This document shows, piece after piece, positions 36,113 to 49,567 of a stretch of 64,000 nucleotides of DNA. Position 1 is the first letter of the stretch. Each line of letters opens with the position of its first letter. The notes under the pieces were generated by a model that saw nothing but the letters and a program-made list of their open reading frames with translations, ran no database searches and was not told where the DNA came from. A program made the position numbers and the translations under genes. Source of the stretch: Fimbriimonadaceae bacterium (GTDB lineage: Bacteria > Armatimonadota > Fimbriimonadia > Fimbriimonadales > Fimbriimonadaceae); contig CP075365.1 of assembly GCA_019454125.1 (NCBI GenBank), forward strand, positions 1,048,218-1,112,217, written 5' to 3'.

Positions 36113-37231
36113 TCAGGAACGCCAGGATCGGTAGAAATGCCCGCGCGCGCGGCGCACGGTCTCGACTGCGCCGGGGCCGACGGCGTTGATGTGCCCCATC
36201 TTCCTGCCCGGCCTACTCTCGCCCTTGCCGTACCAGTGGAACCGGGCCTCGGGCACCGCCTCCAACATGGCCCGCATGGCGGGCCGCCAGTCGCCGGACC
36301 CTTCGCCGGGGGTTCCTTGGCCGAGAATGTTCGCCATGGCCGCCAGCTGCCCCTCCGGCTCGACGCACGGGGCGCCCATTGCCAAACGCACGTGCTGCTC
36401 GAATTGGCTCACCCCGCCCCAATCGAGGGTGTAGTGGCCCGTGTTGTGCGGCCTCGGCGCGATCTCGTTGACCTGGAACGAGCCGTCCTCCAGTTCGAAA
36501 AGCTCGACCCCAAAGAGCCCGAAACCCTCGACCGCCTCGACCGCGGCGATGGCGATCTCGCTTGCTTCGACGTCGGCCGGGTAAACGACGTCGCAGACAT
36601 GGTCGACCTGCTCGGTGACCATTGTCGGGAAGGTCCCCGTCTCGCTCGGCGAGCGGTAAACCATCACCGCCAGCTCACGGCGGAACGGCACGTACTCTTC
36701 GGCGAGCCAGCCCCCCCCTTGCCAAAAGTCCGTGAACGCGTGCAAGTCCGCTTCGGAGCGGACGGTGCGGGTGCCTTTCCCGTCGTAGCCGCCAAAACGC
36801 GCTTTGATCACGTACGGCGTCGTGAAAGCGGAGGCGTCGGCGGCGCTTGTGAGGGCGATGGCGTGCGGGCTTGGGACGGATGCGGCGGCCAACCTCTCCC
36901 GCTGGCGCAGCTTGTCGTTGATCCAGCCGAGCGTCTGCCAACCAGGCGTCACCGCCGTTGCGGCGCGGCCCGCCGCCAGGACTCCCGCTTCGAGCACGTC
37001 CGCCGGGATGAACTCGTTCTCCAGCGTCACGCTGTGGCAACGGCGGCAGACTTCGGCAATCGCCTCGGCGTCGTCGAGCGGGCCCTCAATGGAGTCTGCA
37101 ACATGCCCGGCCGGGGTGCCGCGGCCGGGGTCTAGCGAGAGGCAACGCAACCCCATCCGTTGCGCGGCCATGATCGTCATCCGCGCGAGTTGGCCCCCGC
37201 CGAGAAGGCCAAGGTCGTAATCGAACGCCAA
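36113..37231 (-). CDS. purK: N5-carboxyaminoimidazole ribonucleotide synthase
   Basis: 372 residues. ATP-dependent carboxylation of AIR in purine synthesis. ATP-grasp architecture: LGLLGGGQLARMTIMAA, ENEFIPADVLE, YVIKARFGGYDGKGTRTV, FGVELFELEDGSFQVNEIAPRPHNTGHYT, and C-terminal HWYGKGESRPGRKMGHINAVG. The TTG start has GACAAT eight bases upstream and no Shine-Dalgarno sequence. purE is not adjacent; purC lies at 51538. Good match in length. Confidence 0.95.
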   Translation of the reverse strand: MAFDYDLGLLGGGQLARMTIMAAQRMGLRCLSLDPGRGTPAGHVADSIEGPLDDAEAIAEVCRRCHSVTLENEFIPADVLEAGVLAAGRAATAVTPGWQTLGWINDKLRQRERLAAASVPSPHAIALTSAADASAFTTPYVIKARFGGYDGKGTRTVRSEADLHAFTDFWQGGGWLAEEYVPFRRELAVMVYRSPSETGTFPTMVTEQVDHVCDVVYPADVEASEIAIAAVEAVEGFGLFGVELFELEDGSFQVNEIAPRPHNTGHYTLDWGGVSQFEQHVRLAMGAPCVEPEGQLAAMANILGQGTPGEGSGDWRPAMRAMLEAVPEARFHWYGKGESRPGRKMGHINAVGPGAVETVRRARGHFYRSWRS

Positions 37232-37312
37232 AACGTCCTATTGTCCCTTGCGACGGCACGTTTGTTAAGGCAAGACCCTTGCTGCTCTTGCTTTAGCCCT
37301 AGAGCAGCGACC

Positions 37313-39145
37313 ATGATCAGAAGTTCCTCAGGTGCACAAGACACTGATATGAGAAAGTACGTCTTGTCCGGAGTCTGGTCGGGTGTGTTAGCCGTTGTCA
37401 CCCTGAGCGCCGTCGCCTTTGGCATCCTCTTCCTCAGGTTGGGCGGCAGCTGGGAAACGGGCTCGTCACAGGCCCCCGCGACTGGGGGCGGCTCGTTTTG
37501 GAGCCGCTTGGACTCCGTGTACACACCGCGCATCGCCTGCATGGGCTTCGAACAGCCGGTCGTGTGGCTGCACTTGGTGTCCGACATGCTGATCGGGATC
37601 GCGTACTTCTCCATCCCGATTGCGCTCCTCACCTTTGCCCTGAAGCGTAAGGACTTAGGGTTCAACTGGGTCATCTGGCTTTTCGCTGTGTTCATCTTGG
37701 CTTGCGGCACGACCCACTTCTTTGGTGTTGCGAACCTGTGGACGCCCCTTTATAAAATCGATGGCTTGGTGAAGGCGGTGACCGCCTTTGTTTCCATCGT
37801 GACGGCCATCGTGCTCTGGCCTTTGATCCCGCACGCTCTTGCCGTGCCGAGCCCGGCGATGCTCGAGCGGCAGGTCGCGGAGCGCACGGCCCAATTGGCC
37901 GAGACGAACGAAAACTTAACTGCAGAAGTCGCCGCACGTCGGCTCGCCGAGGCCGAGAACCAGCGCCTGCTCGAGAGCGAGAAGGCGGCCAGGGCCGAGG
38001 CCGAGCGGCTCAACCAGGTCAAGGACGACTTTGTCTCGACGCTCTCCCACGAGCTCCGGACGCCTTTGACCGCCATCCTGGGCTGGTGCCACATCTTGCG
38101 CTCGCCCCTGCGCGATGAGCAGTTGGAGGAGGGGCTCGCCGTCATTGAACGCAGCACCAAGACTCAGAGCCGACTTGTCGAGGACTTGCTTGACATGAGC
38201 CGGATCGCCTCGGGCAAGCTCACGATCGCTTCCGAACCGATCCTCCTGGCTGCGCCGACCCGGGCGGCGATCGAAACGATACAGCCCACCGCGGACGCGA
38301 AGTCAATCCGCATCCATGCCAGGGGTCTGGAAGAGACCTGCATGGTACTTGGCGACTTCGACCGGCTCCAGCAAGTGGTCTGGAACCTCCTTTCAAACGC
38401 GGTTAAGTTCAGTCAGCCCGGCTCCACGGTCACGCTTAGTCTGACCTCGGAAGAGAACACATGTGAGCTTAGGGTGCGAGACGAGGGCAAGGGTATCTCG
38501 CCCGAGTTCCTGCCCCAGGTCTTCGAGCGATTCAAGCAGGCCGACTCCTCGACGACCCGCGAGACGGGTGGGCTGGGCATCGGGCTTTCGGTAGCGCGGC
38601 ATATCGTCGAGCTTCACGGGGGCACGCTAACCGCGCACAGTGACGGGCTGGGCGCCGGGGCCGTGTTCTCGTTGCGCTTGCCGATCTTCGCTCCTTCGCC
38701 GCATGAAGCGGTGAGCGTCCCGACCTTCGAGTCCCCGAGCAATTTCTTGCTCGAGGGGCTGCACATTCTGGTGGTCGATGACGAGGAGGACACGCTGGAG
38801 ATGGTGAAGACGCTCCTGGAGCGCCACGGCGCGACCGTGACCGCCTGCCGATCGGTCAACGAGGGCTTCGTGCAGCTGGTCACCGCGCGTCCCCACCTTT
38901 TGGTTAGTGACATTGGGATGCCGAGCACCGACGGCTACGACTTCATGCGGATGGTGCGCGATTTGCCAGACAGCGAGCTGCGCCAGGTGCCGGCCCTCGC
39001 CCTCACGGCCTATGCGCGTCCGGACGACCGGCTGACCGCGATCCGCGCTGGCTACGACTGGCACCTGGGCAAGCCTTTCCCGCCGAACGAGCTCGTAGAG
39101 ACCATCGCCTGGCTGGCCGTGACTAAAGGCTCCGCGCGTCCGTGA
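37313..39145 (+). CDS. Hybrid histidine kinase with ethylene-receptor-like sensor
   Basis: 610 residues. The N-terminal membrane domain (residues ~20-175) matches plant ETR1: [19 protein letters not shown] and [17 protein letters not shown]. Relative to ETR1, D91, Y98, I101, P102, C131 and H135 fall at a constant offset from D25, Y32, I35, P36, C65 and H69, the copper/ethylene-binding residues. A coiled coil (185-235) leads to the kinase: H-box SHELRTP (H246), N-box [10 protein letters not shown] boxes DEGKG and GLGIGLS. A C-terminal receiver (485-600) has DD at 489-490 and phospho-acceptor D533. No separate response regulator is adjacent. Start could also be ATG 37349. The 3' end overlaps convergent leuC by 23 bases. 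Confidence 0.9.
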
Positions 39146-43895: not shown

Positions 43896-45308
43896 CTACC
43901 CCCGGGTCTTGCCCTGGTCGAGGTTCACCATCGTGCCCATCAACGTCTTTTCTGCCCCCCCGGTATCGCCCCGTTGGATCGCCTGCATGGCGATCGTCAC
44001 TTCTTGGGCTTCCTGGACGCGGCCTTGGGAGAGAAGCAGCGCTTGGGTCTTCTGGAGGTCGGCCACGGCCACCGCACTGGTGATCGCCTGCGTCTTCAAC
44101 CCCATGATCGTCCGCTCGACCGCGCGCCCGGCCGCGGAGACCTCAAACGCCGAGGAGACGCGCGGGTCGACGGGCGCCGAATAGCGGGCCGCATCTGCCG
44201 TGAACTCCATGACGAGGTCGACGTCCACGGACTTCTGCCCGCCTCCGTCCGCATACGTCAGCTTTCCGCCCGCGACCCGGTAATGGCCGAGCGGGTGGTT
44301 CGGGAACTCGAAGTCGAAGACTTGCTGCAGGGTCGCCCCCCGCTCCAGGTCTGCCATCTCCACGGTGAACTCGCGCTGGTCCGGGACGACCGACATGCCC
44401 GTGGCCGCCCGCAGGTTCACCCACCTCGCCAGCTTCAGGGAAAGCTTCAGCCCAGTGACGGCGGTGGTCATCAGCTTCTCCAGTTCCGTGCGGAAGATCT
44501 CGGGGATCAGCTGCGGCTGCGGAATGTAGTAGTAGTTGCCCCCAGACCGCTTCGCCATCGAGGCGAGCAACTCCTCGTTGTACTCTGCGCCGAAACCCAG
44601 GAACGTCGAGGTGACACCGCGGCCCTTCATGTCCCCGGCGAGTTGGACCAGCGACGAGAAGTCCTTGATCCCGGCCGTCGGCTCGCCGTCGGTGAGCATC
44701 ACGAGGCGCGTCGCCCGCCCCGTCTCGCCGCCAAATTGGGCGAGCTGTTGGCTGGCGAGGGTGAGAGCGTCGCTGATGTTCGTCGTATAGCCGGGGCGCA
44801 ACTGCGCGATGCCGTCCTTCACCGCTTGCCGGTTCGTCACCCGCTGCGGGGCCATCAAGACTTCCACGATCTCGTCGAAGACGACGATCGAGAGGACGTC
44901 GTTCGGTCCCAGGAGGTCGACGACGTAGTTACAGGCTTGCTTGGCGTATTCCAGCGGAGGGCCCTCCATGCTGCCGCTCCGGTCCACGACAAGGCACAGG
45001 TTCACCGGCGTGCGCTGGCCACCGGAGACCATGCCAGGCAGGGCGGCGTCGCCGGGCGCCGTGATCTCCACCAAGAACTGCTCACGCGCCGGGCCGTTGG
45101 CCATGGCGGCCTTTCGGCTTGGGGTGGCGACCACGTTCAGCTCGGTCGAAGGGGGCGTCCAGGCGGTCGTCCGGTTCGGGTCTCCCGAAGCGGGCGGGGC
45201 ACTGATCGCGACTGTCCGGTTCGGGTCCGGCCCACCGCCCAGCACGGTCTTGTTGGGGTCGAACCCCGTCATCTGTGTCTTGTTAGGATCGGGCGGCACC
45301 TGGCTCAT
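43896..45308 (-). CDS. VWA-domain protein with N-terminal DPN[KR]T repeats
   Basis: 470 residues. Residues 1-50 hold four DPN-K/R-T motifs (Thr at 11, 21, 32 and 47) in a disordered Gly/Pro segment. A von Willebrand A domain follows (about 95-270) with MIDAS motif VVDRSGSMEG, Thr in the LRPGYTTNIS loop and Asp in VMLTDGEPTAG. The C-terminal half is a beta domain (VVPDQREFTVEMADLERGATLQQVFDFEF) and a helical tail. Two FHA-domain genes follow upstream in the same direction. FHA domains bind phosphothreonine, so the repeated Thr motifs are likely kinase targets that dock there; this is inference. Confidence 0.88.
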   Translation of the reverse strand: MSQVPPDPNKTQMTGFDPNKTVLGGGPDPNRTVAISAPPASGDPNRTTAWTPPSTELNVVATPSRKAAMANGPAREQFLVEITAPGDAALPGMVSGGQRTPVNLCLVVDRSGSMEGPPLEYAKQACNYVVDLLGPNDVLSIVVFDEIVEVLMAPQRVTNRQAVKDGIAQLRPGYTTNISDALTLASQQLAQFGGETGRATRLVMLTDGEPTAGIKDFSSLVQLAGDMKGRGVTSTFLGFGAEYNEELLASMAKRSGGNYYYIPQPQLIPEIFRTELEKLMTTAVTGLKLSLKLARWVNLRAATGMSVVPDQREFTVEMADLERGATLQQVFDFEFPNHPLGHYRVAGGKLTYADGGGQKSVDVDLVMEFTADAARYSAPVDPRVSSAFEVSAAGRAVERTIMGLKTQAITSAVAVADLQKTQALLLSQGRVQEAQEVTIAMQAIQRGDTGGAEKTLMGTMVNLDQGKTRG

Positions 45309-45380
45309 AGTGAAAAGCGTAACCCTGTAGACGTATTCTCGGCTCTTCTCGTTCTTGACGTGCGATTCTGGGCCATGGGT

Positions 45381-46778
45381 CTATTCGACCCGAAACTGGG
45401 TAGAGCCGATCAAGATCGTGTCTCCCGGCCGGGCTTGGGCCGAAGTCACCCGCTGCCCGTTCACGAACGTGCCGTTCGTGCTGCCAAGGTCAGTGACGAT
45501 GAGTCCGGCTTGGGTCGGGGTCACGGTCGCGTGACGGCGGGACGCTTGGGAGTCGAACCCGAGCGCGAGCCCCGCCGCCTCCCGGCCGATTTCGAGGGAA
45601 CCGGCCACCGGGACCCGCTGCCCGGTCAGAGGCCCGCTCACGGCCACCAAGGAGAAGGCGGCCGGGGCCACCGTCGCCACGCCGGGCTGGGGCATGTGGG
45701 CCGTGGGTGAGGGCGAAGCCTGATGGGGCTGTTGTTGCGGCGCCGACCAAGGTGCCGGCTGCGCCGGGGCGGGACCGGCCGCGAACTGCCCGTGGGAGAT
45801 CGCGTGCGCCTTTGCGCGGCCCTCAGCGGCGGCCTGCGCCGAGCCCGCGCGCATGAGGAACTGAAGGTTCAGGGAACCGACCTGGATCGTGTCCCCATGG
45901 CGCAGCAGCGCCTGTGGGACGCGGATGCCGTTGTGCCCTACCCCGATGGGGCTGTTGGGGTCTACGAGCATGTATGTCTGCCCCTGGCGCTGGATCACGG
46001 CGGCCAGGGCAGGGATTTGCGCGTCGCCGAAAAGGGGAACGTGGGCGCGCTCGTCCCTGCCGATCAGCGTCTGGCCCGCGTCGATCGGCCACTCGCGGCC
46101 CTCGTTCCGGCCGACGACAAGACGCAACCAGGCGCGTCGCGTCACCCGGTCTACTAGGGCCGTGAAGAGTCCGATGAAGAGGCCGAGGCCGAAGGCCATC
46201 GCGGCCCGGCCCGGTGCCCCGGTCTCGACCTGCTGCCCCGCGGCAACGGAGCCCATGTTCCCAAGCATCGTCACCGAGGCGAGCGCTGCGGCCAGGGGGT
46301 CGAAGACCATTCCCGTGATGAACCCGGCGATCGCGCCGCCGATGGCTCCGGAGAACAGCGAGCGGACTGACATCTGCGACGCCCCCACCGCCGCGCCGAT
46401 TGCCAGCGCCATCGGCACGAAAGCGGCGACCCGCGCGATCGGTCCGGGCCCGCCCGTGCCCATCACGACCGCGGCGAAGACCGCCCCGCCGATGATCTTC
46501 CCGAGCCCGCCCCCGACCGCGCCGAAGACGAGCCCGAGCGCGCCCGAGACCAGAATGTTGCGCCTTCCGCCCCGTGCCGCCCCGTGGAGCACCCCCGAGG
46601 TACCGCCGACCAGGGCTCCCAGCAAGAGGAAGAGGATCTGTTCGACCGCTGCCCAGCGCGCGTCGACCTGCATCGCGCCAAACCCGGAGAAGACGCGAGG
46701 GAAGAAGGGTTCGCAAATGATCCAGGCGAGCGTGCCTGCGAGGGCGCATGCGAAGGCGCGAACAACGACGCTCCCCAT
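45381..46778 (-). CDS. Polytopic membrane protein with two FHA domains
   Basis: 465 residues. The first ~215 are Gly/Ala-rich membrane helices (FACALAGTLAWIICEPF, ILFLLLGALVGGTSGVLHG, ALGLVFGAVGGGLGKIIGGAVFAAVVMG, AMAFGLGLFIGLFTALVDRV). A first FHA-like domain (about 220-310) begins LIGRDERAHVPLFGD but has lost the Ser-x-x-His core (IPALAAVI). A Pro/Gln linker leads to a canonical FHA domain (LEIGREAAGLAL...ASRRHATVT...DLGSTNGTFVNGQRV). Adjacent to a second FHA gene (stop and start touch) and the VWA gene, suggesting one membrane signalling complex. Confidence 0.88.
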   Translation of the reverse strand: MGSVVVRAFACALAGTLAWIICEPFFPRVFSGFGAMQVDARWAAVEQILFLLLGALVGGTSGVLHGAARGGRRNILVSGALGLVFGAVGGGLGKIIGGAVFAAVVMGTGGPGPIARVAAFVPMALAIGAAVGASQMSVRSLFSGAIGGAIAGFITGMVFDPLAAALASVTMLGNMGSVAAGQQVETGAPGRAAMAFGLGLFIGLFTALVDRVTRRAWLRLVVGRNEGREWPIDAGQTLIGRDERAHVPLFGDAQIPALAAVIQRQGQTYMLVDPNSPIGVGHNGIRVPQALLRHGDTIQVGSLNLQFLMRAGSAQAAAEGRAKAHAISHGQFAAGPAPAQPAPWSAPQQQPHQASPSPTAHMPQPGVATVAPAAFSLVAVSGPLTGQRVPVAGSLEIGREAAGLALGFDSQASRRHATVTPTQAGLIVTDLGSTNGTFVNGQRVTSAQARPGDTILIGSTQFRVE

Positions 46779-48041
46779 CTATGCCTCGTAGCGCAGGGCC
46801 ACCGACCCGAACTGGACGGAGTCCCCGGGGTTCAGCGCAGCGCTTCCTTCCAGCCGCACGCCGTTCACGAAAGTGCCGTTCGTACTGCCCAGGTCGGCGA
46901 TGGTGAGGCTGTCCCCGGTCCGCGTGATCTGGGCGTGCCGTCGTGAGACGGTGGACTCGCCTGCCAGCACGATCTCCGCGCCCTCCTCGCGGCTGACCAC
47001 GGCGGTGCCTTCCGGCAGTAGGTAGATCGAACCGTCCGCGCGCACGAGCCTCGGGTTCGAGACAGCGCCGACGGCGGGAACGCTGGCCGGGGCGGGGACG
47101 GGACCGGGGGGGCCGTCCCCGAGCACGATCGGTTGGATCGGTTGCGGGGCCTGCGGCACGGGGGCAGGGTCCCCTCCGGCTTGGGCTTGCTGGCCCTGGT
47201 CTCCAAGCCCGACCTGCTTCAGGGCGTCTTGGACCTTGGCGGGGTTGTTCTTGACGAACCAGAAAATTCCATAGCCGACCCCGCCCACGACGGCAAGACC
47301 TATAACAAGGTTGATAATTGAGGCGAGGGGGTTCAAGGGTTCTGTCGGCTTTGGCGGTGCCGCTCCGCTTTCTGACGCGGCCGCACCGCCGCTTCGTTCT
47401 GGCGCCCCCTCTTTTCGACCGGTCGCTGCGTCCGGCTTTTCTGCGGGCACGGTCTCCACGGGGTCGGCGATTTCGATCTTTCGGGGCTCCGTGACGCCTG
47501 CCCCCAGCTTAGCCACGAACGTTTGGGCCGGGGTCTGCTTTTCGTCGCCGCCCGATTTGAACTTCACGGCCACGGTGAAACTCCCCTCGGGAAGGTTTAG
47601 GAACTCGGCAATTCCCTTGTCGCTTGGAGTGACCAGGGCAGTCCGCTTTTCGTCCCCGGCGACGACCTCGACCACCGCCGTCGAGACAGGCTCGCCCCCG
47701 TGGGTCAGCAAGAAGGCGCTTCGAAAGACGCGGGCGTCGTCTTCGGGCAGCACCCGCCACCGGCCTTCCTGGACCTTCGCCAAGGCGCGGACGGCGACGT
47801 TTCCAGTCTTACGGTCGTGGACGAAGATCGCGAGCTTGCCGGGCTTGTCACCGACGGGCAGCTCTAGCGAAGTGCCGCTTGCGCTAACCGGGCCGTCGAC
47901 CTTGCCGGGCTCCTCGAGCGAGCCGAGCCAGGCCACGCGGTCTCCCTCGCCCGGAAACTCCAGGCGCACAAACTTGGACTGTCCGAGCGATGCGGCGGCT
48001 ACGAGCAGGAGGACGAGCAGGCAGACCGGTCTTCTTTGCAC
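46779..48041 (-). CDS. Single-pass membrane protein with C-terminal FHA domain
   Basis: 420 residues. Signal peptide (CLLVLLLVAAASLG), an extracellular beta-sandwich region (residues ~25-190, with SFTVAVKFKSGGDEKQTP), a Pro/Ala-rich stretch, one membrane helix (IINLVIGLAVVGGVGYGIFWFV, ~240-262), and a cytoplasmic FHA domain (GTAVVSREEGAEIVLAGESTVSRRHAQITRTG...DLGSTNGTFVNGVRLEG). The layout would link an outside sensor to phosphothreonine binding inside. The first 43 bases overlap the end of nnr, and its stop touches the next FHA gene start. Confidence 0.88.
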   Translation of the reverse strand: MQRRPVCLLVLLLVAAASLGQSKFVRLEFPGEGDRVAWLGSLEEPGKVDGPVSASGTSLELPVGDKPGKLAIFVHDRKTGNVAVRALAKVQEGRWRVLPEDDARVFRSAFLLTHGGEPVSTAVVEVVAGDEKRTALVTPSDKGIAEFLNLPEGSFTVAVKFKSGGDEKQTPAQTFVAKLGAGVTEPRKIEIADPVETVPAEKPDAATGRKEGAPERSGGAAASESGAAPPKPTEPLNPLASIINLVIGLAVVGGVGYGIFWFVKNNPAKVQDALKQVGLGDQGQQAQAGGDPAPVPQAPQPIQPIVLGDGPPGPVPAPASVPAVGAVSNPRLVRADGSIYLLPEGTAVVSREEGAEIVLAGESTVSRRHAQITRTGDSLTIADLGSTNGTFVNGVRLEGSAALNPGDSVQFGSVALRYEA

Positions 48042-49567
48042 GTTAGCGTGAGTTTAGCCCGGGCGGCGGGAAGGCGCGAGATCACGTCTCGCGCGGTGTA
48101 GCCGACCGCACCCAGTTCCATCGCGGCGAGGTCGCCCGCCAGGCCGTGCCAAAACATCCCGGCTGCGGCCGCCTCAAGGGCCCCGGCGTCCTGGCCGAGG
48201 AGGGTCGTGACCACCCCGCCCAGAACGTCACCCATCCCTGCGGAAGCCATGCCGGGGTTGCCAGTCTGGTTCACGAGGAGGTCTTGGCCCGGCCCGGTGG
48301 CCAGGCTGTGCGCGCCCTTGAGGAGCACCGTCTTGCCCAGCCGTTGGGCCGCTTCCGCGACGCAGCCGAGGCGGTCGGCCTGGATCTGATCGGCGGACTT
48401 TCCGAGCAGGCGGCCCATTTCGCCCGGGTGCGGGGTCAGGACGCACTCGCAAGGCGGCAGGGTCAGCCCAGAGGCGATCGCGTTGAGGGCGTCGGCGTCG
48501 ATACAGCTCGGCACCTCCCAGCGGCACCAGACTTTGGCCAGAAAGTCCTTGACGGGCTGCGTTTGGCTCATCCCGGGGCCGAAGAGGGCGGCGTCAAAGT
48601 GGTGCTGGTTTTCAATGACCCGCTTGAACGCGGCGGGGTCGATCACGCCGTCCGTCTCCGGGAGCGGCATCAGCACGCACTCCGGGCAGTGGGCCATCAC
48701 GGTCTCGAGGACGGGTTCGACCGAGGCGACCGTCACCACGCCGGCCCCCGACCGGTAGGCAGCCTTTGCTGCCAGCGCCGCCGCCCCGCGCATTCCACGG
48801 CTCCCCGCAACGATCAGCACGTGGCCGTTCATGCCCTTGTGGCTGGACCGTAGGCGCTCGGGGACGAGGCTGGCCACCCAGTCTTGGCAGACCATGCGCG
48901 TGCCCGTCGGCTCGTTCGCGACTTGGCGCGGGAAGCCGATGTCCGCCACCGTCCAATAGCCGGAGTGCTCCAGCCCCATGGCTTGGAACAAGTAAGGCTT
49001 GGGAAGCCCGAATGTCACCGTCCGGAGCGCCCAGACGCTGTCGCCGAGCTCCGCGCCCGTGTCCGTCTCGATCCCGCTCGGGACGTCGATGGCGAGGACA
49101 GGCACCCCCGAACGGTTCACCGCGCGGACGGCTTCGGCAACGTTGCCGAGAAGCGGGCCGTGGGCGCCTATCCCCAGGATCGCGTCGACGATGAGGTCAA
49201 AACTGCCGAGGCACTCGAGCTTGCGCTCCCAGCGGGGGTCGCCCGCGAAGACGGGCCGCAGGCCCAGCCCTCGGGCCTGGAGCATCTGCTGCCGGCACTC
49301 CTCGCGAAGGGACGCTTCGTCCGAGGTGACCAGGCAGGTGACGCCGTAGCCGTGCTCGTGAGCAAGCCGGGCGACCACGAAACCGTCCCCGCCGTTGTTG
49401 CCGGGGCCGCAGAGGACGATGATCCGGCCCCCTTCCGGGAGCATCTGGCGAAGGGTCTCGAAGACGGCCAAACCGGCCCTCTCCATCAGCACCATGGCCG
49501 GGATGCCGAACTCTTCGGTCGCTCGACGATCGATCTCGCGGCAACGGGCTGTATCGGCGATCCACAT
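47999..49567 (-). CDS. nnr: Bifunctional NAD(P)HX epimerase / ADP-dependent dehydratase
   Basis: 522 residues repairing hydrated NADH/NADPH. N-terminal YjeF epimerase domain: MVLMERAGLAVFETL, VLCGPGNNGGDGFVVARLAHEHG, DLIVDAILGIG and VLAIDVPSGI. C-terminal ribokinase-like dehydratase: HKGMNGHVLIVAGSRGMRGAA, VLTPHPGEMGRLLG, VLLKGAHSLATG and GNPGMASAGMGDVLGG. Overlaps the downstream FHA gene. TAGAAA lies 12 bases before the start. Confidence 0.93.
   Translation of the reverse strand: MWIADTARCREIDRRATEEFGIPAMVLMERAGLAVFETLRQMLPEGGRIIVLCGPGNNGGDGFVVARLAHEHGYGVTCLVTSDEASLREECRQQMLQARGLGLRPVFAGDPRWERKLECLGSFDLIVDAILGIGAHGPLLGNVAEAVRAVNRSGVPVLAIDVPSGIETDTGAELGDSVWALRTVTFGLPKPYLFQAMGLEHSGYWTVADIGFPRQVANEPTGTRMVCQDWVASLVPERLRSSHKGMNGHVLIVAGSRGMRGAAALAAKAAYRSGAGVVTVASVEPVLETVMAHCPECVLMPLPETDGVIDPAAFKRVIENQHHFDAALFGPGMSQTQPVKDFLAKVWCRWEVPSCIDADALNAIASGLTLPPCECVLTPHPGEMGRLLGKSADQIQADRLGCVAEAAQRLGKTVLLKGAHSLATGPGQDLLVNQTGNPGMASAGMGDVLGGVVTTLLGQDAGALEAAAAGMFWHGLAGDLAAMELGAVGYTARDVISRLPAARAKLTLTCKEDRSACSSSCS

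Follow-up and report, generated by a model that had tools for sequence, protein, structure and literature searches.

We analyzed a window of 64,000 nucleotides (nt) from a Fimbriimonadaceae bacterium of the phylum Armatimonadota (assembly GCA_019454125.1, contig CP075365.1, positions 1,048,218 to 1,112,217), whose genome is a 2.65-Mb single contig. In this window, genes for two membrane proteins with FHA domains, FHAB and FHAA, lie upstream of a gene for a VWA protein whose N-terminus carries four DPN[KR]T motifs. We interpret these genes as the membrane and VWA half of an Armatimonadota cassette of six proteins for Ser/Thr phospho-signalling, with repeats that would be written by a kinase and read by FHA domains, and we give this interpretation a probability of roughly 0.62. 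The other three members are ZnR-FHA (a zinc ribbon and two FHA domains), the phosphatase PP2C and the Hanks-type kinase PKN1. Comparative support comes from motif conservation, confinement of the motif to two cassette proteins, conservation of the FHA pockets, operon linkage, co-occurrence and co-loss of the genes, and an ArnB-like predicted structure. Phosphorylation of the repeats, their binding by FHA domains and recruitment to the membrane are what we infer from these comparisons.

In the proposed mechanism, the membrane kinase PKN1 would phosphorylate the Thr of the repeats on the VWA tail and on ZnR-FHA, and the predicted active FHA domains (that of FHAB, the second of FHAA and both of ZnR-FHA) would bind the resulting phosphothreonine (pThr) sites. 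The VWA protein, as an ArnB-like hub with a metal ion-dependent adhesion site (MIDAS), beta-sandwich and helix bundle, and ZnR-FHA, as its ArnA-like partner, would in this way form one complex that includes FHAA and FHAB, which would hold it at the membrane. PP2C would strip the phosphates and reverse assembly. The outside domain of FHAB and the region of PKN1 past its transmembrane helix may sense a signal. The cassette is thus pictured as what is probably a phylum-wide switch, in which the kinase tags repeated motifs and membrane-anchored readers then bind them. A sequence-only reading of the same DNA had already suggested a phospho-dependent membrane complex that recruits the VWA protein. 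That core agrees with the comparisons, as the repeats are conserved, the kinase is in the same operon elsewhere and the FHA pockets are invariant where predicted active. However, the suggested complex was incomplete, as the soluble, repeat-bearing ZnR-FHA and PP2C belong to it too, and its closest known pair is ArnA/ArnB.

Repeated DPN[KR]T motifs in two cassette proteins

The VWA protein (470 amino acids (aa); 43896..45308, minus strand, like all window features below unless stated) matches Pfam PF00092 (E=3e-18) and is ArnB-like by its AlphaFold2 (AF2) model and Foldseek. The model consists of a disordered tail (residues 1-50), a beta-sandwich with the VWA domain, and a C-terminal four-helix bundle. 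Its predicted local distance difference test score (pLDDT) is 85 overall, 41–50 for residues 1–50 and mostly >90 for the rest; the disorder of the repeat region matches the expectation for a phospho-tail. The MIDAS motif DxSxS is kept in 42/42 orthologues.

Translation of the open reading frame confirmed the four motifs that had been read in this tail: DPNKT at aa 7–11 (Thr11; 45276..45290) and aa 17–21 (Thr21; 45246..45260), and DPNRT at aa 28–32 (Thr32; 45213..45227) and aa 43–47 (Thr47; 45168..45182). They are conserved across VWA orthologues, and the absence of such conservation had been named as an observation that would speak against the complex. Thr21, Thr32 and Thr47 are each found in >90% of 41 aligned orthologues, the latter two being invariant in a set of 15. 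The linkers differ in both length and sequence while Thr32 and Thr47 stay conserved (15 and 41 sequences), and successive motif threonines are usually 10–15 residues apart, most commonly 13. The four repeats are encoded by different codons and are therefore not a recent DNA repeat.

A motif scan of the whole genome returned these four repeats and three in one other gene (C1:1128999–1129090), which encodes ZnR-FHA. In this 311-aa protein the three repeats come with a CxxC/CxxC zinc ribbon and a pair of FHA domains; the ribbon (C-x2-C...C-x2-C) is present in 42/42 orthologues. ZnR-FHA of some deep lineages has a DnaJ (J) domain (PF00226) at its N-terminus, as in L261:9320-10582 (E=3e-12), L279:134-2728 and, probably, L277:797-2065. 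The N-termini of 39 VWA orthologues hold 79 strict DPN[KR]T motifs versus 0.02 after shuffling each sequence, a contrast among related orthologues and not a probability. The corresponding count for ZnR-FHA is 59 in 41 orthologues, likewise not independent, versus 0.03 in shuffles. Across 37 genomes, a DNA pattern for two motifs gave 22 matches, every one within VWA or ZnR-FHA genes, and its reversed control gave 0. Our literature search found no relevant paper containing DPNKT.

The disorder of the tail and its abundance of P, G, A, N and T would suit a functionless coincidence of low-complexity sequence. The shuffles (79 vs 0.02 and 59 vs 0.03), the differing codons and the occurrence of paired motifs in just two cassette genes make this extremely improbable, and we ruled out chance or a simple DNA repeat on these grounds. 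A second alternative takes the repeats as docking peptides that would bind, for example, the kinase or the zinc ribbon without being phosphorylated, with Thr conserved for direct contacts. It would account for the conservation of all five residues (D, P, N, K/R and T), which goes beyond the needs of FHA recognition. However, Thr is retained where D, P and N drift (Thr32 and Thr47 hardly vary, and deep lineages have [KRA]TQ forms), and the neighbouring cassette genes encode a kinase and a phosphatase for pThr as well as its readers. We consider docking quite unlikely.

Predicted FHA readers, kinase and phosphatase

FHAA (45381..46778) is a polytopic membrane protein with six transmembrane helices by hydropathy, which its AF2 model (pLDDT 89) supports. 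These are followed by FHA1 (aa 216-309; 45852..46133), a disordered linker and FHA2 (aa 375-464; 45387..45656). The transmembrane part is glycine-rich and conserved; a fold search with FHAA gave matches to FHA only and nothing informative for the six-helix part. FHAB (46779..48041) has a signal or anchor segment, a predicted extracytoplasmic domain, one transmembrane helix by hydropathy (aa 245-263; 47253..47309) and a cytoplasmic FHA domain (aa 351-412; 46806..46991).

The pThr-binding residues of PF00498 (R, S, H and N) are essentially invariant in four of the five FHA domains of the cassette. They are found in 35/35 orthologues for FHAA FHA2, in the 33/33 FHAB orthologues aligning there, and in 42/42 for both domains of ZnR-FHA. 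The fifth, FHAA FHA1, has lost the set: R and N are retained, and the ligand Ser is replaced (mostly by Ala, otherwise Pro or Val) in nearly all orthologues. The earlier description of FHAA as polytopic with one dead and one canonical FHA domain was thus correct and extends to its orthologues, and that of FHAB as an outside domain, a membrane helix and an FHA domain agrees with hydropathy and domain search.

The presence of repeats and two canonical FHA domains in one protein would allow ZnR-FHA to act as a cis switch, its phosphorylated N-terminal repeats binding its own FHA domains in the style of GarA, OdhI and DgcB, with the VWA tail competing for the same pocket. The main event would then be the opening and closing of ZnR-FHA and not recruitment. 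Structures of FHA proteins with phosphorylated N-terminal segments are available, going by their titles, for OdhI, Rv1827 (GarA) and Bdellovibrio DgcB. However, FHAA and FHAB, membrane proteins without repeats, account for two of the four active FHA domains and are encoded by the most conserved neighbours of the VWA gene, and the VWA protein, which has no FHA domain, has more repeats and a longer tail. We regard a cis switch as possible but on balance doubtful.

The window contains no Ser/Thr kinase or phosphatase gene, as the sequence-only reading had stated; PKN1, PKN2 and PP2C are encoded outside it. That reading had also suggested a genome search for a Ser/Thr kinase conserved with the cassette, and PKN1 is such a kinase, encoded in the same operon in other classes. 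The genome encodes two Hanks-type proteins, the canonical PKN1 and the PASTA protein PKN2. PKN1 has intact HRD..K..N and DFG motifs, an activation-loop Thr and one transmembrane helix, and is predicted from these residues to be an active kinase. PP2C belongs to the Stp1/IreP family NF033484 (245 bits, cut-off 230) and is the sole PF13672 protein of this genome. We rejected PKN2 (L002:520-2280; G000:C1:2612405) as the writer, as its catalytic loop reads HGDLGARH and lacks HRD, DFG is absent, and it is retained in a genome (G029, below) where no FHA protein remains. PKN2 appears to be a conserved pseudokinase, kept in that reduced genome without any FHA domain or PP2C. The only other phospho-signalling gene that we noticed in the part of the window that was read encodes, judging from its sequence, a hybrid histidine kinase with a receiver domain (37160-39145, plus strand), unrelated to the cassette.

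Several PKN1 orthologues from the window's class have the activation loop FEPNLTMDGQVFGTPSYMSPE, and most others have one of the EP[NST][LI]T type. The loop form EPNLTMDG is similar to the repeat form DPNKTMLG, and three other active kinases read from the same family lack such a loop. A repeat that mimics PKN1's own loop, as this short similarity may indicate, would suit kinase and FHA reader alike. A parallel is PknB, which recruits the FHA protein GarA by letting its FHA domain dock on the kinase activation loop (Villarino 2005, as cited in PMC6213207). An extended and tentative version of our proposal, which we think rather unlikely, is a bacterial multivalent-pThr signalosome that spans the phylum. 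Four active FHA domains, half of them anchored in the membrane, would read seven strict repeats on two soluble proteins and the similar kinase loop site, and graded phosphorylation would gather a cluster at the membrane with an ArnB/Sec23-like VWA protein as its hub. This would resemble the multivalent phosphotyrosine tails of animal receptors.

Likeness to ArnA and ArnB

The top Foldseek match of the VWA model was 8S05 (ArnB; E=3e-26, target TM score 0.75), followed by 4FX5 (Catenulispora vWA) and the ArnB paralogue 5A8J (TM score 0.76). A profile of the VWA family aligned to the ArnB chain of 8S05 over residues 95-438, nearly the whole folded part, with E=1.5e-15. The modelled VWA protein therefore appears to have the architecture of ArnB (vWA, beta-sandwich and C-terminal four-helix bundle). 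In distant loci, a putative ArnA-like partner with an N-terminal zinc ribbon and FHA domains, ZnR-FHA, is encoded beside it. The FHA profile of ZnR-FHA matches ArnA (E~1e-15), with GarA and FhaA scoring higher. This match covers the FHA part only, a RanBP ribbon fell below the cut-off, and homology to the ArnA ribbon is not established. On these models the cassette would work like ArnAB, and strict membership holds for the ArnB fold only.

ArnA/ArnB of Sulfolobus is a motility-repression module that pairs a vWA, beta-sandwich and helix-bundle protein with a zinc-ribbon and FHA protein (PMC6509490, PMC12852372). It is a target of Ser/Thr kinases and of a phosphatase, and its FHA binding depends on phosphorylation, two features to which we liken the cassette. 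The ArnA zinc ribbon binds unphosphorylated ArnB and the ArnA FHA domain binds phosphorylated ArnB, the phosphosites being multiple and redundant (PMC6509490, PMC12852372). Unlike that module, the cassette is bacterial, has two membrane FHA proteins and PP2C instead of PP2A, and lacks an archaellum; its ArnA-like partner has two FHA domains, and its candidate sites are on an N-terminal tail common to both partners. In 19 distant loci, motility genes are not among the recurrent neighbours of the cassette; control of motility itself was not examined. ArnAB has been called a special case, and most ArnB-like proteins have been described as having no part in switches by multiple phosphorylation (PMC12852372).

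The ArnB phosphosites are in the homologous bundle (PMC6509490, PMC12852372), and in the C-terminus of the VWA protein (43914..44165) the last helix of the bundle carries the near-invariant segment EKTLMGT..LDQGK. KTL[M/I]G is found in 42/42 VWA orthologues, with Thr455 invariant in 41. This segment is similar to the N-terminal repeats (KTLMG and KTMLG). The FHA domains could thus chiefly read the VWA bundle at its invariant EKTLMGT segment, as ArnA reads ArnB, with the repeats as kinase substrates that tune or count phosphorylation. However, ZnR-FHA has no such bundle and shares the repeat, which suggests that the repeat itself is recognised. We hold reading of the bundle to be unlikely, though worth keeping in mind.

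Gene order, distribution and related systems

The three cassette genes of the window are transcribed in the order FHAB, FHAA (gap 0) and, after 72 nt, VWA. In other Armatimonadota classes the genes form one operon, NNR–FHAB–FHAA–VWA–ZnR-FHA–PP2C–PKN1, and all six cassette genes are together in 12 distinct distant genomes. In the window's family this operon is split into FHAB–FHAA–VWA, ZnR-FHA–PP2C and PKN1. VWA and ZnR-FHA are adjacent in 22/22 distant loci and non-adjacent in this genome, where PP2C directly adjoins ZnR-FHA. Two genomes that share the window's order but belong to other families (G038 and G039; f3 and f4) keep FHAB–FHAA–VWA–ZnR-FHA–PP2C together, the FHAB gene of G039 being cut by the contig end. 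FHAA adjoins VWA in 30/40 loci and ZnR-FHA adjoins PP2C in 30/42. In genus g4 (L068, L206 and L221, the last being Armatimonadetes bacterium Uphvl-Ar2), a local inversion has put VWA on the strand opposite to FHAA, which it faces.

NNR, an NAD(P)H-hydrate repair gene (47999..49567), is a conserved upstream neighbour, probably housekeeping and outside the mechanism. We rejected NNR and AcpS as functional partners, as both are conserved neighbours but housekeeping; besides these two, no gene recurs next to the cassette in the 19 distant loci. A stand-alone DUF1854 gene directly downstream of VWA (PF08909; 43387–43839) was rejected too, with no match beside VWA in relatives. A fourth FHA protein (139 aa; L130:2286-2705, G000:C1:299785-300204) was left out of the cassette, as it lacks repeats and is unlinked. 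It has a canonical FHA domain and an acidic tail, is encoded by an isolated gene, and has orthologues in G016 and G038.

In a scan of genome contigs, the best 80 loci were labelled Armatimonadota or unclassified metagenome-assembled genomes, with one exception labelled archaeon. This record (L200, JADZEW010000001.1), titled Methanoregulaceae archaeon, encodes the Fimbriimonadaceae VWA protein (62% identity) and is probably mislabelled. VWA and ZnR-FHA tend to occur together: of 291 Armatimonadota genomes, 182 have both, 90 have neither, and 19, many of which are incomplete assemblies, have one of the two. A 1.5-Mb, 97% complete genome (G029) lacks VWA, ZnR-FHA, any FHA domain, PP2C and PKN1, and retains only the degenerate PASTA protein; VWA and ZnR-FHA are likewise absent from its sister G157. 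These two 1.5-Mb members of the same family (genus g29) are a natural knock-out lineage.

Other systems share parts of this layout. GarA/OdhI with PknB/PknG in Actinobacteria and Bdellovibrio DgcB also use an FHA domain to read a short pThr motif at the N-terminus, but each is one small FHA protein or a fusion to GGDEF, without a VWA hub, shared tandem repeats or a polytopic FHA protein. A variant type VII secretion system (T7SSc) co-encodes a membrane kinase, a vWA protein and a PPM phosphatase (TscD/TscE/TscF; PMC11217815), but requires an EccC/EssC ATPase and WXG100 proteins. We rejected a type VII or T7SSc identity, as genes for these do not recur beside the cassette in the 19 distant loci. 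Actinobacterial GAP1-N2 systems have adjacent kinase, PP2C and standalone vWA genes; they are associated with GAP1-N2 GTPases, and in what we drew from the source FHA proteins are not described for that theme (PMC7159879). The threonine phosphorylation pathway of type VI secretion (PpkA/PppA/Fha) likewise has a kinase, PP2C and an FHA reader (as cited in PMC6213207 and PMC11217815), but belongs to a secretion apparatus, none of which recurs beside the cassette in the same 19 loci. A defence system was rejected, as PADLOC gave no match for VWA, FHAA, FHAB or ZnR-FHA and only generic kinase and PP2C matches.

Several observations weigh against the proposed cassette. PKN1 is unlinked to the other cassette genes in this genome. 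The strict DPN form is mostly confined to Fimbriimonadia, deep lineages retaining just [KRA]TQ-like motifs, and ZnR-FHA orthologues of family f2 have short tails from which DPN[KR]T is absent altogether. ArnB phosphosites are in the C-terminal bundle and not in an N-terminal tail (PMC6509490; PMC12852372). The counts of genomes with VWA and ZnR-FHA are raw, uncorrected for phylogeny. The co-loss in G029 is a single weak event in a reduced genome that has lost many genes.

To our knowledge, signalling in Armatimonadota is essentially unstudied. The conserved operon unites an ArnAB-like hub and reader pair in bacteria with its own kinase and phosphatase and with membrane readers, and its short tandem motif predicts which residues to mutate. 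It offers a tractable two-enzyme, four-reader system for multivalent pThr–FHA binding in bacteria. The cassette may also be the reason that a genome which is ordinary in other respects retains a single canonical Hanks kinase.

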